Below are positions 33,988-38,175 of a stretch of DNA of 64,000 nt, piece by piece. The notes beneath the pieces are model-generated. The model did not search any database, was not told where the DNA came from, and saw nothing but the letters and a program-made list of their open reading frames with translations. The translations under genes and the position numbers were made by a program. Each line of letters begins with the position of its first letter. Position 1 is the stretch's first letter. Source of the DNA: Streptomyces sp. NBC_00234 (GTDB lineage: Bacteria > Actinomycetota > Actinomycetes > Streptomycetales > Streptomycetaceae); assembly GCF_036195325.1 (NCBI RefSeq), contig NZ_CP108101.1:3224001-3288000 (forward strand), read 5' to 3'.

Positions 33988-35379
33988 TCAGCGCACCCCG
34001 CGCAGCCTGCGCCACGGGGTGAAGGTGAACACCGCGCCGCCGAGCAGGATCGCCGTACCGGCGACCAGCCCGAGCGCGCGCAGTGCGCCGTCGTCCTCGG
34101 CCCCGGTGTCGGCGAGACCGCCGCCGGAGTCCGTACCGCCGGCGGACGCCGCTCCGCCGCCCGAGGTGCCGCCCGAGGCGCCGCCCGGCTGGGCCGCGGT
34201 GTCGAGCTCCAGTGACGGGGCCACCGATCCCTTGACCTTGCAGGGGATGTTGATCTTCGACGATCCCAGGGTCACGTCGATCGTCAGGGTGCCGGGGCTG
34301 AGTGTGGACTTCCCGGACGCCCCCGGCTTGTAGGTGCCGGTCATGTCGGCCAGATCGACCGGCTTGCCCTGCTCCAGCGGTTCGGCGTTGGCCGGGCCGG
34401 TGACCTTCACCGAGCCCTTGTCGGCGCCGCCGACGGTGACGTCCATGGACGGTTTGAGCGCACCGGCGGGCAGCGCGGCGGGGCTGTCCATCACGCCCTT
34501 GGCCGTCTTGACCGTGAGTGCGTAGCTCCCACCGTTCTTCTTGGCGTTGATCGTCACCTTGGAGGCGATGCCGGCCGGTCCGGGGGAGGTGCAGGCGAAG
34601 TTGACCGCGACCTCCTTGCCGGGGAAGTCCGTCTGGCCGCTGCCGCCGCCGGAGGCGGTACCGCCCGCGTCGGAACCGCCCGAGGTCGTGCCACCCGCTG
34701 TCGTACCGCCTGCGGTGGTACCTCCCGCGGTGGTACCACCGGCCGTCGTACCGCCCGCGGTCGTACCACCGGCCGTGGTGCCGCCCGCGGTCGTACCACC
34801 GGCCGTCGTGCCGCCCGATGTCGTACCGCCGCCTCCTTCCGTCACCTTGATCGTGGCGCCCGGCTGGACCGCCTCCTTCGGGGAGCACTTGGTGTCCGTG
34901 GAGATCGGCTTGGACACGTTGATGGTGTAGCCGTCCGGCGTCAGCGTGAGATCGCCCGCCTTCTCCAGCTTCAGCGTGCCCTTCATGTCGGGCAGCACCA
35001 TGGGACTGTTCTTGGGGATCGGCGGGTTCTGCCGGGGGCCTTCGAGCTTGAGTTCACCGCTCGCCGCCCCGCCCAGCTTGATCGTGCCGGTCGGCTTCAC
35101 CGTGTCCTTGTCCAGGTCCAGGACGTCGGGGTTCTTGGAGGCGGCCTCGACCGTCTTCCAGACGACCTCGATCTCGTCTCCGACCTTGGCCTCCGCCGGA
35201 GCGGTCAGCTGCACCTTGGTGGTGCCCTGGACGGGTGGCAGTCCGGAAATCGCGGGCGGAATGCACTCCGTCGCGTACGAGACGTCGGCGGCCTGGGCTG
35301 GACTCGCGACCAGCAGAATCCCCGCCCCGCCGAGCATCAGCGCGACTCCTGCCGCGCTCATCCTCCGTTGCGTGCTCAC
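33988..35379 (-). CDS. Surface protein with two homologous domains, Gly-Thr repeats and LADTG sortase signal
   Basis: Exported protein of 463 residues. A signal peptide ([20 protein letters not shown]) is followed by domain 1 (about residues 30-180), a GGTTA repeat linker (about residues 184-250) and domain 2 (about residues 255-405). Both domains are homologous to the single domain of the 37510-38175 protein, sharing KPS/T..LGGA..G and DLSGTY/DMTGTY patterns. The C-terminus is LADTG, a hydrophobic helix and RRLRGVR, the class E (LAxTG) sorting signal. It is likely cell-wall anchored; function is unknown. The GTG at 35379 has AAGGGA upstream and overlaps the previous stop (GTGA). Confidence 0.85.
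34681..34830 (-). repeat. Tandem 15-bp coding repeat (GGTTA units)
   Basis: Ten or so units of 15 bases encode Gly-Gly-Thr-Thr-Ala/Ser. Synonymous third-position differences between units show the array is not freshly expanded. Confidence 0.85.
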
Positions 35380-36443
35380 GAATGTCCCTTCGTCGTGGGT
35401 CTGTTCTCTGACGGTGCGGAATCCGGGGTGAACCACGGCAGCGAGGCCGTGGTCGTGGTGCTCACGGGCGGCGCCGCCCGCATACGCCGCCGGGGACGGT
35501 GACGCGGGAGGCGCGGACGGCTCGCGGCGGGGCGGGGGCGCACCTTGTCGACGACCGCCATGCCGATACGGAAGACGGCGGCGGGCACGACGACGCACAG
35601 CAGGATCCAGAAGAGCGTGACGCCCCAGGGGCGGCCCACCCGCCACGGCTGCTCGGCCAGCACCTTCGTCCCGTACCGCACGGAGACCTGGTAGTCGCCG
35701 TGCGCGCCCGCGGTCAGCTCGACGGGCAGCTCGATCTGCGCCTTGCGGCCGGGTGCGACGGTGCCGCGCCACTGCCGTTCCTCCCACTGCGGGGCGTAGA
35801 CGCCGTGCGCGGTGCCGATCTCGAACACCGGGTCCTTCACCGGAGCCGAGCCCAGGTTGCCGACGGTGAAGACCAGCTTCCGGGAGGCCGGGGCGCCGAA
35901 CCAGGTCAGCAGTCCGCTGTCGCCCGCCAGCCGGGTGGTCGCCAGCACGGCGAGCCTGCCGCCTCCGGTCTGTTCGGGCAGCGGGGCGGTCGGGTGCCCC
36001 GCGACCGTGAACACCGCGTCGGCCGTGGCCTGTTCACCGGTGACCGTGGCGACGTGCACCACGCACGGGCAGGGCACGGGCGGCTCGGCGACCGGCATCT
36101 CCTTGGTGAAGGCGCCCGCCTTGTCGGTGGTGACGGCGCGGCCGTCCGCGTTGGCACAGGAGTTGGTGCCGCCGATCACGCCCTTGGCGGGCGTGGCCCG
36201 TCCGCAGATCAGCATCATCAGCAGGGTGCCGGGACGCCAGTCACGGCCCTTGACCGTGATGTCGCCGCCCTTGCCCGCCTGTTCGGCGGAGAGCGTGACA
36301 GTGGGCCCGTCCGCCGCGACGGCGGCGGGGGCGGCGGGCAGGAGCAGGAGGACGGACAGCAGGGCGGGCAGCAGGGCGAGGAGCCCCACGGCTGCCCGGC
36401 CGCTGCCGCGCCGGAGGGGTGCCGGTCCGGTCTTTCCGGTCAC
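35376..36443 (-). CDS. Secreted membrane-anchored protein with Ig/neocarzinostatin-like domain
   Basis: Protein of 355 residues with a signal peptide ([20 protein letters not shown]). The N-terminal domain (about residues 45-150; [20 protein letters not shown], cysteines in LICGRA and [13 protein letters not shown]) resembles a neocarzinostatin-like beta-sandwich. A second beta-domain follows (about residues 155-275; [20 protein letters not shown]). A membrane helix ([20 protein letters not shown]) precedes a basic cytoplasmic tail. Start and stop both overlap neighbours by four bases, so it is the third gene of a coupled surface operon. Function is not known. Confidence 0.8.
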
Positions 36444-37426
36444 GAGTGCGCTCCTGCCTTCACCAAGTGCCTGTCGGGGGAATCCGGTTCACCGGACGAG
36501 GACCGGCCGGGCGGATCGTCGCCCGGTGCCGTGCCGCGTCCGCGTCGCCGCCATGCGTACGCGCCCGCGCCGGCCGCGGCGAGCACCGCCAGGGCGCCGC
36601 CGGTCAGCGGGGCCCAGGGGACGTACACCGCCGCTGCCGACGCCTCACCGCGTGCGCCGCCCGCCGCCGTGACGCTCAGCCGGACCGTGACGCGGTCGAG
36701 GGCCGGGGCGTCGGGCCACGGCTCGGTCAGTTCCACCCGCTGCCCCGGCAGGAGCTCCAGCGGGAGTGTGCGGGCCTGGCGCCGGGGGAACGCGCCGGTC
36801 AGTCCGTCCGCGGTGACGGCCAGGCGCGGTACGAGAGCCGCGTTACCGCGGTTGACGAGGGCGTAGCGGATGGTCCGCCCGGACAGGGAGACGTCCTCGA
36901 CGGTGAGCGCCGCCAGGGTCGGCCCGCTCACCCGCAGATGCACGCGCACGCCCACCTCGCGGCCCCCGCTCACGGCGAGGACGGCGCCGGGGTGGTCACC
37001 GGGCGTCGCGCCGGGCGGCACCGTGACGGCGAAGGGGACCTCGGCGCGGGTCCTGGGCGGTACGGTCACCTCGCGCGAGGCGAGCCGCAGCCAGGAACCC
37101 GTACCGGTGGAACGCTTCGCCCCGCGCACGGCGAAGCCGCCGCCCTCGGTGTTGTACGCGTCGGCTCCCCGCAGGCGCACGGTGATCTCGGTGCGCCCGG
37201 GATTGGCCACCGAGAGGCGGTCCTCCAGTACGGTGCCGGGCGCGCCCTCCAGGTAGAAGTACGGCCGGCCGCCGTCGCTCGGCCGCGCGCCGCCACCGGT
37301 GGGCCCGGCGGACCAGCCCGGGGTGGCGGCGTCCCGGCGATCGGCGCCGGACGCCGGGGTGACGGCGAAGGCGCACAGGAGTACGGCGAGCGCCGCTCGG
37401 GCGGCGTGACCGGTCGACAGCGACAT
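36440..37426 (-). CDS. DUF916/WxLIP-like membrane-anchored protein
   Basis: Protein of 328 residues: signal peptide (ARAALAVLLCAFAVTPASG), two beta-sandwich domains and a C-terminal helix (LTGGALAVLAAAGAGAYAWR) with a basic tail. The first domain (about residues 50-160) has PYFYLEGAPGTVLEDRLSV, EITVRLRGADAYNTEGGGFA and VTVPPRTRAEVPFAVTVPP, the layout of DUF916/WxL-interacting proteins of Firmicutes. In those systems such proteins scaffold WxL and LPXTG proteins on the wall. The similarity here is by pattern only. The ATG at 37426 has AGGGAG seven bases upstream. Confidence 0.75.
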   Translation of the reverse strand: MSLSTGHAARAALAVLLCAFAVTPASGADRRDAATPGWSAGPTGGGARPSDGGRPYFYLEGAPGTVLEDRLSVANPGRTEITVRLRGADAYNTEGGGFAVRGAKRSTGTGSWLRLASREVTVPPRTRAEVPFAVTVPPGATPGDHPGAVLAVSGGREVGVRVHLRVSGPTLAALTVEDVSLSGRTIRYALVNRGNAALVPRLAVTADGLTGAFPRRQARTLPLELLPGQRVELTEPWPDAPALDRVTVRLSVTAAGGARGEASAAAVYVPWAPLTGGALAVLAAAGAGAYAWRRRGRGTAPGDDPPGRSSSGEPDSPDRHLVKAGAHS

Positions 37427-37509
37427 GGGCGGCTCCCTGGTGCGGGTGCGTGCGGGGTGTGGCGTCCTGGGCGCCCGTGACCGGGCACCCTCCGGGTGCG
37501 GTGCGGGCC

Positions 37510-38175
37510 TCAGCCCGTGGCCCGCTGCCCCCGCCTGGTCAGCCACAGCACTCCGGCCGCACCGGTCAGCAGGACCGTGCCGCCGAGCGTGCCGAGCGCG
37601 GCGGCGGAGTCGAGCGGGCCGGTCTTCGGCAGTTCGCCGCCGCCCGCCGGGGCGTTCTGCGAGGTGGCCGCGCCCGCCACGTCGAGTTCGAGCGAGGGCT
37701 TGGGATTGTTCTTGGGCGTACAGGTCGTGGTCGTACCGAGCGCCTTGATGGTGAGCACACCGGCGGTGAAGGTGACCTTGCCGGTCTTCTTCGGGGTGTA
37801 CGTACCCGACAAGTCGCTGATCTTGATGGGGGTGTTGGCGGGGATGGCCGCCGTGTTCGCAGCGCCGGAGACACTGACCTGCCCGCTCTCGGCGCCGCCC
37901 AGCTTGATCACCGCGCTCGGCTTCATGGCGCCCTTGCCCAGTTCGACCGGACTGGACGAGACGCCCTTCTGGAAGGACATGGTGAGTGTGTAGCCGGATC
38001 CGCTCTTGACGCCCTTGATGTCGATGGGCGACACGGCCCCCTTGGGGCCGATCGGCGTCTGGCACTGGTAGTTGACGTCCACGACCTCGGCGTGGGCGAC
38101 GGGCGCGGCCATCAGCACCACCGAGCCCGCCACCGCGGACACCGCAGCGAGAGCTGTCCTCTTCTGGTTCGACAC
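37510..38175 (-). CDS. Single-domain surface protein with LPKTG sortase signal
   Basis: Exported protein of 221 residues: signal peptide (TALAAVSAVAGSVVLMAAPV), one domain of about 140 residues (VDVNYQCQTPIGPKGAVSPI, KPSAVIKLGGAESGQVSVSG, IKISDLSGTYTP), then LPKTG, a hydrophobic helix and RRGQRATG. It should be sortase-anchored. The domain is homologous to both domains of the protein at 33988-35379; it may be the family filed as DUF6801 but I could not check. GTG at 38175 has AGGGGAA upstream. It is the first gene of the operon. Confidence 0.85.
   Translation of the reverse strand: MSNQKRTALAAVSAVAGSVVLMAAPVAHAEVVDVNYQCQTPIGPKGAVSPIDIKGVKSGSGYTLTMSFQKGVSSSPVELGKGAMKPSAVIKLGGAESGQVSVSGAANTAAIPANTPIKISDLSGTYTPKKTGKVTFTAGVLTIKALGTTTTCTPKNNPKPSLELDVAGAATSQNAPAGGGELPKTGPLDSAAALGTLGGTVLLTGAAGVLWLTRRGQRATG

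Follow-up and report, generated by a model that had tools for sequence, protein, structure and literature searches.

Among Gram-positive bacteria, WxL-domain proteins and their membrane partner WxLIP, a DUF916 protein, form a surface system described almost only from Firmicutes (Lactobacillales, Bacillales); more than 91% of 938 WxL sequences were Firmicute, so that some non-Firmicute WxL proteins are already known (PMC9772566). WxLIP is predicted to complete and stabilize the β-sandwich of WxL by an inserted strand, and the system has been read as one of gut-host adhesion, the membrane helix being proposed to enter host membranes (PMC10599100). The title of PDB entry 9i25 gives WxLIP bound to a long WxL protein. 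What does such a scaffold do where the WxL domain is absent? The window, that is, the whole stretch of 64,000 nucleotides analyzed here (Streptomyces sp. NBC_00234, contig NZ_CP108101.1, positions 3,224,001 to 3,288,000 of the forward strand), carries at 33988-38175 an operon of four genes, g1 to g4, in which a WxLIP relative but no WxL domain is detected. Probably, this operon is a branch of the WxL/WxLIP (csc) surface system that relies on sortase anchoring and does without WxL, and not an independent analogue of that system. No description of the operon was found in the literature searched (including DUF916 together with Streptomyces), as far as the matches listed and the parts of those papers at hand go; DUF916 proteins of actinobacteria are already annotated as such in public records.

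Genes, domains and sorting signals of the operon

The operon and the parts of its products are as follows (window coordinates).

37510..38175, minus strand: g1, exported, with one domain X and an LPxTG sorting signal, 221 amino acids, GTG start, called in 78 of 80 loci
37678..38088, minus strand: domain X copy in g1 (genome position 3261678-3262088)
37618..37632, minus strand: LPKTG sorting motif of g1
36440..37426, minus strand: g2, DUF916/WxLIP relative with two Ig-like domains and a C-terminal membrane helix, 328 amino acids
36980..37273, minus strand: residues 52-149 of g2, matched by PF06030 (WxLIP peptidoglycan-binding domain)
36539..36616, minus strand: predicted membrane helix of g2, residues 271-296, from the model
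35376..36443, minus strand: g3, with a neocarzinostatin-like domain followed by a second Ig-like region, a membrane helix and a tail, 355 amino acids
35379..35441, minus strand: conserved C-terminal tail of g3, with LPWF in 74 of 76 orthologs
33988..35379, minus strand: g4, exported, with X twice, a linker of Gly/Thr repeats and an LAxTG sorting signal, 463 amino acids
34840..35292, minus strand: domain X copy A in g4
34198..34620, minus strand: domain X copy B in g4
34102..34116, minus strand: LADTG sorting motif of g4

A preliminary description made from the letters of this DNA had proposed four consecutive genes with three four-base overlaps. The four genes are indeed open on the minus strand without internal stops, and two of the overlaps are there (g2/g3 at 36440-36443, g3/g4 at 35376-35379), g1 and g2 being separated by a gap of 83 bp. 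The same layout recurs in orthologous loci, where an overlap of exactly 4 bp was found for g2/g3 in 58/76, for g3/g4 in 65/75 and for g1/g2 in 0/78. These loci are the best 80 of 395 related stretches by similarity to g2, and the named set is limited to Streptomyces because a narrower g2 alignment was used. Co-occurrence of the four genes, on which the idea of a system had been made to depend, is seen in 74 of the 80, and the remaining six end at contig edges; the 74 include L154, where g1 is a contig-edge fragment, and L147, where the frame of g1 runs on into g2. Individually, g1 was called in 78 loci, g2 in 79 (by tblastn; 80 by the DUF916 profile), g3 in 77 and g4 in 75. Hydropathy gives an N-terminal hydrophobic segment in each of the four proteins, in agreement with the export proposed for all of them.

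By sequence profile and by predicted fold, g2 is a genuine DUF916/WxLIP relative. PF06030 matches it with an expectation value (E) of 1.2e-5 and 25.7 bits, 1.6 below the curated cut-off of 27.3, and matches 14 of 19 aligned members of the g2 family at E≤0.01; a profile of this family finds EfmWxLIP1 among PDB sequences (E 1.3e-5). The AlphaFold model, built with 63 sequences, has a mean predicted local distance difference test score (pLDDT) of 83.9 and comprises two β-rich domains and a C-terminal helix, its helices lying at residues 7-20 and 271-296. The latter is a membrane helix from the model, as the C-terminal segment falls below the hydropathy cut used. Both Enterococcus faecium WxLIP entries are the top PDB matches in Foldseek and VIA-align 2: 9i25_C (Foldseek E 1.8e-12; Z 17.4 with 228 residues aligned over 35-270 and a root-mean-square deviation, rmsd, of 5.3) and 9i1y (Z 16.7, 227 residues aligned). 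The rmsd of 5.3-5.7 for the two may reflect a different inter-domain angle in the model. The next fold is a fimbrial chaperone at Z 12.5. Another clear fold would have spoken against the proposed system; the fold of the DUF916-like protein is that of WxLIP. The second Ig domain, in the HBD/DUF3324 position, is recognized by fold alone, through the 9i25_C alignment over 35-270; DUF3324 has no sequence match in g2 by Pfam scan, in which the aligned family members were included. The WxLIP sequence NQIDKxxxYFDLK is not kept either, as g2 has GRPYFYLEG there and the YF-L part alone can be recognized.

What would be held by this scaffold? One homologous domain of about 140 residues, called X here, occurs once in g1 and twice in g4, with a similarity far above chance: X of g1 is 38% identical to copy B (E 8e-30) and 30% to copy A (E 1e-17). 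Among non-redundant copies the mean identities are 76% within g1, 40% between g1 and B, 27% between g1 and A, and 31% between A and B. The linker between the two copies in g4 (about 34620-34840) consists of repeats of the Gly-Gly-Thr-Thr-Ala type. Judging from the model of g1 X, which is all β with pLDDT 94.6 and a predicted template modeling score of 0.87, X is an undescribed β-sandwich domain, predicted to be compact and well-ordered. Pfam gave no convincing family among 84 members (best E 0.004), sequence searches against solved structures gave nothing useful, and Foldseek of the model against PDB gave nothing at E≤1e-3. In VIA, the top match of X is 3LSO, from Corynebacterium diphtheriae and putatively membrane-anchored (Z 9.0, 137/140 residues, rmsd 3.8, 19% identity; next row 1.2 lower), a likeness which is structural and is accompanied by no sequence match. 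For three candidate identities, hhalign comparison of sequence profiles gave no signal: DUF6801 (probability 2.7% over 22 columns against PF20611 members, with five DUF6801 sequences only), the WxL-like domain (probability 0.3%) and DUF916 (probability 0.1%). With DUF6801 and with WxL, a shared fold would be compatible with this result. WxL chains are not among the best 50 structural matches listed for X, which excludes nothing. X is present in 31 of 41 genomes (the source genome and 40 relatives), mostly at DUF916 loci by reading of coordinates. Copies away from a DUF916 match include one each in the relatives G009, G014 and G018, two in G012 and three in G019.

Sortase signals had been proposed for the first and last proteins, and both C-termini have what is expected of sortase substrates, namely the motif, a hydrophobic stretch and a basic tail: LPKTG-hydrophobic-RR in g1 and LADTG-hydrophobic-RR in g4. 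The difference between the two signals is kept in orthologous loci, with LPxTG in 76/78 g1 calls and LAxTG in 75/75 g4 calls; the two g1 exceptions are the running-on frame of L147 and the fragment of L154, which is 21 residues long. From these signals, g1 and g4 are expected to be coupled to the wall by sortase. Could they then form a developmental coat, in which the anchored g1 and g4 would alter the hydrophobicity of the hyphal surface like chaplins or CwpA/CwpB? LAxTG is a documented class E signal in S. coelicolor, with long chaplins among the class E substrates (PMC5148588), and sortase-anchored CwpA/CwpB suppress exploration (PMC13251363). However, no chaplin match was obtained from Pfam or NCBIfam at E≤1. 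To our knowledge, moreover, the chaplin system has no WxLIP or neocarzinostatin-like partners. Nor does the compact, ordered β-structure predicted for X resemble CwpA, CwpB and long chaplins, which have large disordered regions (PMC13251363). We consider such a coat very improbable and keep to a WxLIP-based surface system.

The remaining product, g3, would be a second membrane-anchored protein. It had been called neocarzinostatin-like, which is borne out for the family more than for the window's own protein: of the 21 members aligned, 19 have a PF00960 match at E≤0.1 (best 2.7e-7), and the window's g3 has none and reaches E 1.7e-4 and 21.4 bits against a cut-off of 86 with the NCBIfam chromoprotein model. 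The likeness to the neocarzinostatin/enediyne apoprotein family lies in the N-terminal domain with four Cys, invariant in the alignment, to which g3 adds a second region and a membrane helix, the latter found by hydropathy as a C-terminal hydrophobic segment. The g3 profile found no PDB sequence at E≤1. Past the membrane segment, the tail ends in LPWFTPD...TKG in Streptomyces.

WxL-like proteins at other DUF916 loci

That the preliminary description saw no WxL motif is right for the window locus: a WxL-like profile matched in 0/80 orthologous loci at E≤1e-2, and PF13731 matched neither g1 nor g4 at E≤1. It does not hold for the whole genome, in which a second DUF916 locus (L063, 2626400-2637400, near 2.63 Mb) has a WxL-like protein with an N-terminal X beside its DUF916 gene. 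The same arrangement, with X preceding the WxL-like domain within one protein, recurs at seven paralogous loci of Streptomyces (E 2e-27 to 3e-32). In four loci from a second family of the taxonomic order, two proteins carry X, a small one with LPHTG and a large WxL-like one, both encoded upstream of DUF916 and of a relative of g3. At the two of these loci that were scanned, L069 and L071, the gene immediately upstream of the one for X-LPHTG encodes a class E sortase. The earlier view of an actinobacterial counterpart rather than a copy had to be revised, because Firmicute WxLIP and the scaffold are homologous and because divergent WxL proteins exist next to DUF916 genes in actinobacteria. The simplest history would be that the WxL domain was lost, with X and the scaffold retained, and this direction of change is the one we favor for the window operon.

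How divergent are these WxL-like domains? PF13731 matches 13 of 17 aligned actinobacterial C-terminal domains at E≤0.01 (best 2.2e-7), and in all 17 the Trp of the first motif, the Asp eight residues before it and the Arg six residues before it are invariant; Asp and Arg at just these distances are described for the first WxL motif (PMC9772566). The Trp of the second motif is replaced by Leu or Ile in all 20 matching open reading frames (ORFs) of the loci from which the profile was made. In 35 ORFs of other loci this position is Phe in 14, Leu in 10, Ile in 4, His in 3, Trp in 1 and Gln in 1, and was not found in 2; the D-x-R...W pattern of the first motif is seen in 21 of the 35. Since the profile gave no match to PDB sequences at E≤0.1, assignment to WxL rests on Pfam, motifs and neighborhood.

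Of 98 genomes sampled across the class Actinomycetes, 35 have DUF916 proteins. From 62 places, 40 DUF916 regions (26 genomes, in places with several loci per genome) were taken outside the loci used for the WxL-like profile, and circularity is therefore avoided; the places left out had been used previously, lay at contig ends or were not needed. In 25 of the 40 regions there is a WxL-like ORF, which in 21 immediately precedes the DUF916 gene on the same strand and in 4 lies elsewhere in the region. The other 15 have no match at E≤1e-3, and some of them show a similar C-terminus by eye, which was not counted.

Some of these loci have further features of their own. In L063, L060 and L066, the X/WxL-like and DUF916 genes lie beside a putative GTPase gene, which we take to be era from its sequence. 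One protein (L072:6129-7790) combines an N-terminal HtaA domain (PF04213, E 3.5e-22), a heme-binding domain, with a WxL-like C-terminus beside a DUF916 gene. Plasmids of Clavibacter and Cellulosimicrobium (L036, L037) carry pairs of small WxL-like and DUF916 genes near GH43 and LamG genes.

Conservation, neighboring genes and upstream DNA

In 36 same-genus relatives, all four genes were found in the locus examined in 18; in four more, g1 and g2 are present and g3 or g4 is absent or incomplete, one lacks g1, and two (G011, G020) have coordinates fitting a full cluster. With these counts, and those of the relatives lacking it given below, the cluster is common, not universal, in Streptomyces. 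Its upstream neighbors are the following.

38358..38849, minus strand: HATPase_c_2 anti-sigma kinase-like gene (PrsI-like)
39042..39410, minus strand: STAS anti-anti-sigma gene (ArsI-like)
39693..40718, plus strand: sigma-70 family sigma factor gene (SigI-like)

In gene order, the feature compared here, the sigma gene on the plus strand with divergent STAS and kinase-like genes fits the arrangement published for sigI, arsI and prsI, which belong to the response to osmotic stress (PMC8346170). Among the 80 loci, the sigma gene was called in 64, STAS in 65 and the kinase-like gene in 66; the downstream neighbor, a POT-family peptide transporter gene, was called in 67. Beyond the transporter gene, a DraK-type histidine kinase and response regulator pair lies at window 29985-31988. 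Because a sigI-like locus adjoins the operon, use of the operon under osmotic or envelope stress is suggested. In a stronger version, the operon itself would serve the sigI partner switch as a transmembrane sensor: the ectodomains of g2 and g3 would sense the state of the envelope, and the g3 tail would signal to the STAS/kinase/sigma module. The order of the neighbors, their presence in 64-66 of the 80 loci and the strong conservation of LPWF in the tail (74/76) are in line with this. Nevertheless, it rests on adjacency across a terminator-like hairpin between the kinase-like gene and g1, the g2/g3 relatives of the second family have no such neighbors within the stretch examined, and the orientation of the g3 tail relative to the membrane is assumed. 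A sensor of this kind seems hardly probable.

The noncoding DNA before g1 (window 38200-38330) is unusually conserved over 77 Streptomyces upstream regions, with the string TGTCTTCCCT in 72/77 and GGCGTACCTT in 71/77 of them. Two features can be placed there.

38237..38252, minus strand: near-palindrome TCTGATGCGTCGTCAG inside the conserved noncoding block
38298..38320, minus strand: hairpin with a T-run after it, between g1 and the kinase-like gene; by eye it resembles a terminator, and it is not listed by the terminator scan

The promoter/terminator scan listed no sigma-70 site and no minus-strand terminator. As for the near-palindrome, a stricter pattern matched 1/77 upstream regions and a wider one 34/80 orthologous loci. 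The degenerate pattern CTGAYGNNYCRTCAG has 24 matches over both strands of the source genome, at 18 distinct places (L220-L237); the same pattern reversed has 2. One match lies before the window operon and one before the paralogous X/WxL gene, and these two are not independent support because the pattern was widened to include both. The other places often precede genes such as those for P450, thiolase, acyl-CoA dehydrogenase, oxidoreductase, amidohydrolase or flavin enzymes, and the 18 may form one regulon; seven lie near 4.66-4.73 Mb. When the upstream element was compared with 200 shuffles in 11 related loci, the number of shuffles at least as good was 44 for L060, 41 for L067, 55 for L075, 11 for L070, 3 for L069, 1 for L063, and 0 for L061, L064, L065, L066 and L071, with gene starts set by hand and the 11 loci related to each other.

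Another reading is capture of polysaccharide or nutrients at the surface, in which X and the neocarzinostatin-like domain of g3 would bind a sugar or lipid ligand and g2 would be an Ig-type stalk. Recurrence of the upstream element before P450, thiolase, acyl-CoA dehydrogenase and oxidoreductase genes would fit it, as would the small-ligand binding for which the neocarzinostatin family is known, and glycoside hydrolase, LamG or sugar-transport genes near DUF916 in the three plasmid records viewed. The csc clusters, too, have been proposed to serve carbon acquisition and use of plant polysaccharide (PMC1534035). On the other hand, no hydrolase or sugar transporter gene adjoins the operon, whose downstream gene is the peptide transporter, and X matches no carbohydrate-binding family, nor any PDB entry in Foldseek at the threshold given above. 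Capture is therefore a tentative reading, and we regard it as unlikely.

A proposed docking scaffold without WxL and its described relatives

How could the operon work as a branch of the WxL/WxLIP system? Its product would be a cell-envelope complex, with g2 as a membrane-anchored WxLIP of two Ig domains and g3, which carries the neocarzinostatin-like domain, as another protein anchored in the membrane. Most likely, and perhaps together with g3, g2 would bind and stabilize the X proteins g1 and g4 at the outer face of the membrane and present them to sortase for coupling to the wall via LPxTG and LAxTG, and the outcome would be a covalently anchored surface layer of X domains. Thus g2 would take the docking role of WxLIP for X, and sortase anchoring would replace wall binding by WxL.

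Several observations weigh against this. No sequence relationship of X with WxL or with DUF916 could be detected, so that X need not use the site at which WxL binds. X genes occur in G009 and G014 without any g2 match, so that g1 can persist without g2; conversely, X was found in 0/40 of the class-wide DUF916 loci, so that DUF916 mostly works without X. The 80 loci, all from Streptomyces and chosen by g2 similarity, are not independent, and, on our reading, 11 of the 36 same-genus relatives have no cluster (8 without a g2 match, 3 with weak or distant ones). PF13731 matched only four of the eight DUF916 neighbors scanned, and with scores under its cut-off. Finally, LPVTG seems to serve as a signal for SrtE, the class E sortase of Actinoplanes missouriensis (PMC13251363), and for this reason the LPxTG/LAxTG split need not mean two sortases and assignment of LPxTG to class F is not concluded.

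A wider picture can be drawn by joining these lines, and as a whole it is decidedly unlikely: WxLIP would be a docking chaperone, tethered to the membrane, for the surface proteins of Gram-positive bacteria in general and not a host-adhesion factor, and Streptomyces would have lost WxL and re-partnered WxLIP with a new β-sandwich domain entering the wall by two signals (possibly class F and class E), under a conserved promoter-proximal element common to the second WxL/DUF916 locus and with the g3 tail tied to the sigI stress switch. One component can be argued on its own. A WxLIP relative sits in Streptomyces, and insertion into host-cell membranes is therefore unlikely to be a general role of WxLIP. 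Host adhesion, too, can hardly be carried over as a reading to Streptomyces; conservation of the operon there, together with DUF916 in 35/98 genomes of the class, argues for an older, host-independent role in the envelope.

With the window operon, the WxL/WxLIP system would extend to Streptomyces, minus its namesake domain. As the WxL-free variant separates scaffold from WxL domain naturally, binding of X by WxLIP becomes directly testable in tractable non-pathogens, and the fixed pair of LPxTG and LAxTG within one operon is a natural test of the division of substrates between sortases.

Against the described systems, the operon can be placed as follows. With Firmicute WxLIP (DUF916-DUF3324-TMH; 9i25, 9i1y), g2 shares a signal peptide, two Ig-like domains over 35-270, a C-terminal helix and a similar length, and it differs in having no WxL partner in its operon, in a PF06030 score just below the cut-off and in a DUF3324 part unmatched by sequence. 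The divergent actinobacterial WxL-DUF916 loci (L063; L060-L077; L166-L205) share the DUF916 scaffold with it and, in the Streptomyces paralogs and the second family, X as well; they end in a C-terminal WxL-like domain whose second Trp is usually Leu, Ile or Phe, whereas the window operon has sortase signals instead. The csc clusters CscA-D, as far as their account goes (PMC1534035), likewise combine a DUF916 membrane protein, an LPxTG protein and further exported proteins in one operon. The counterparts of CscA and CscD are g2 and g1, and CscB/CscC (WxL1, WxL2) were not found in the window operon with the WxL-like profile. The 221 residues of g1 exceed the 90-140 given for CscD; CscD has only 40-60 residues between its signals, whereas g1 carries there a domain of about 140. 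Beyond the csc set, the window operon encodes a neocarzinostatin-like protein and an LAxTG protein.

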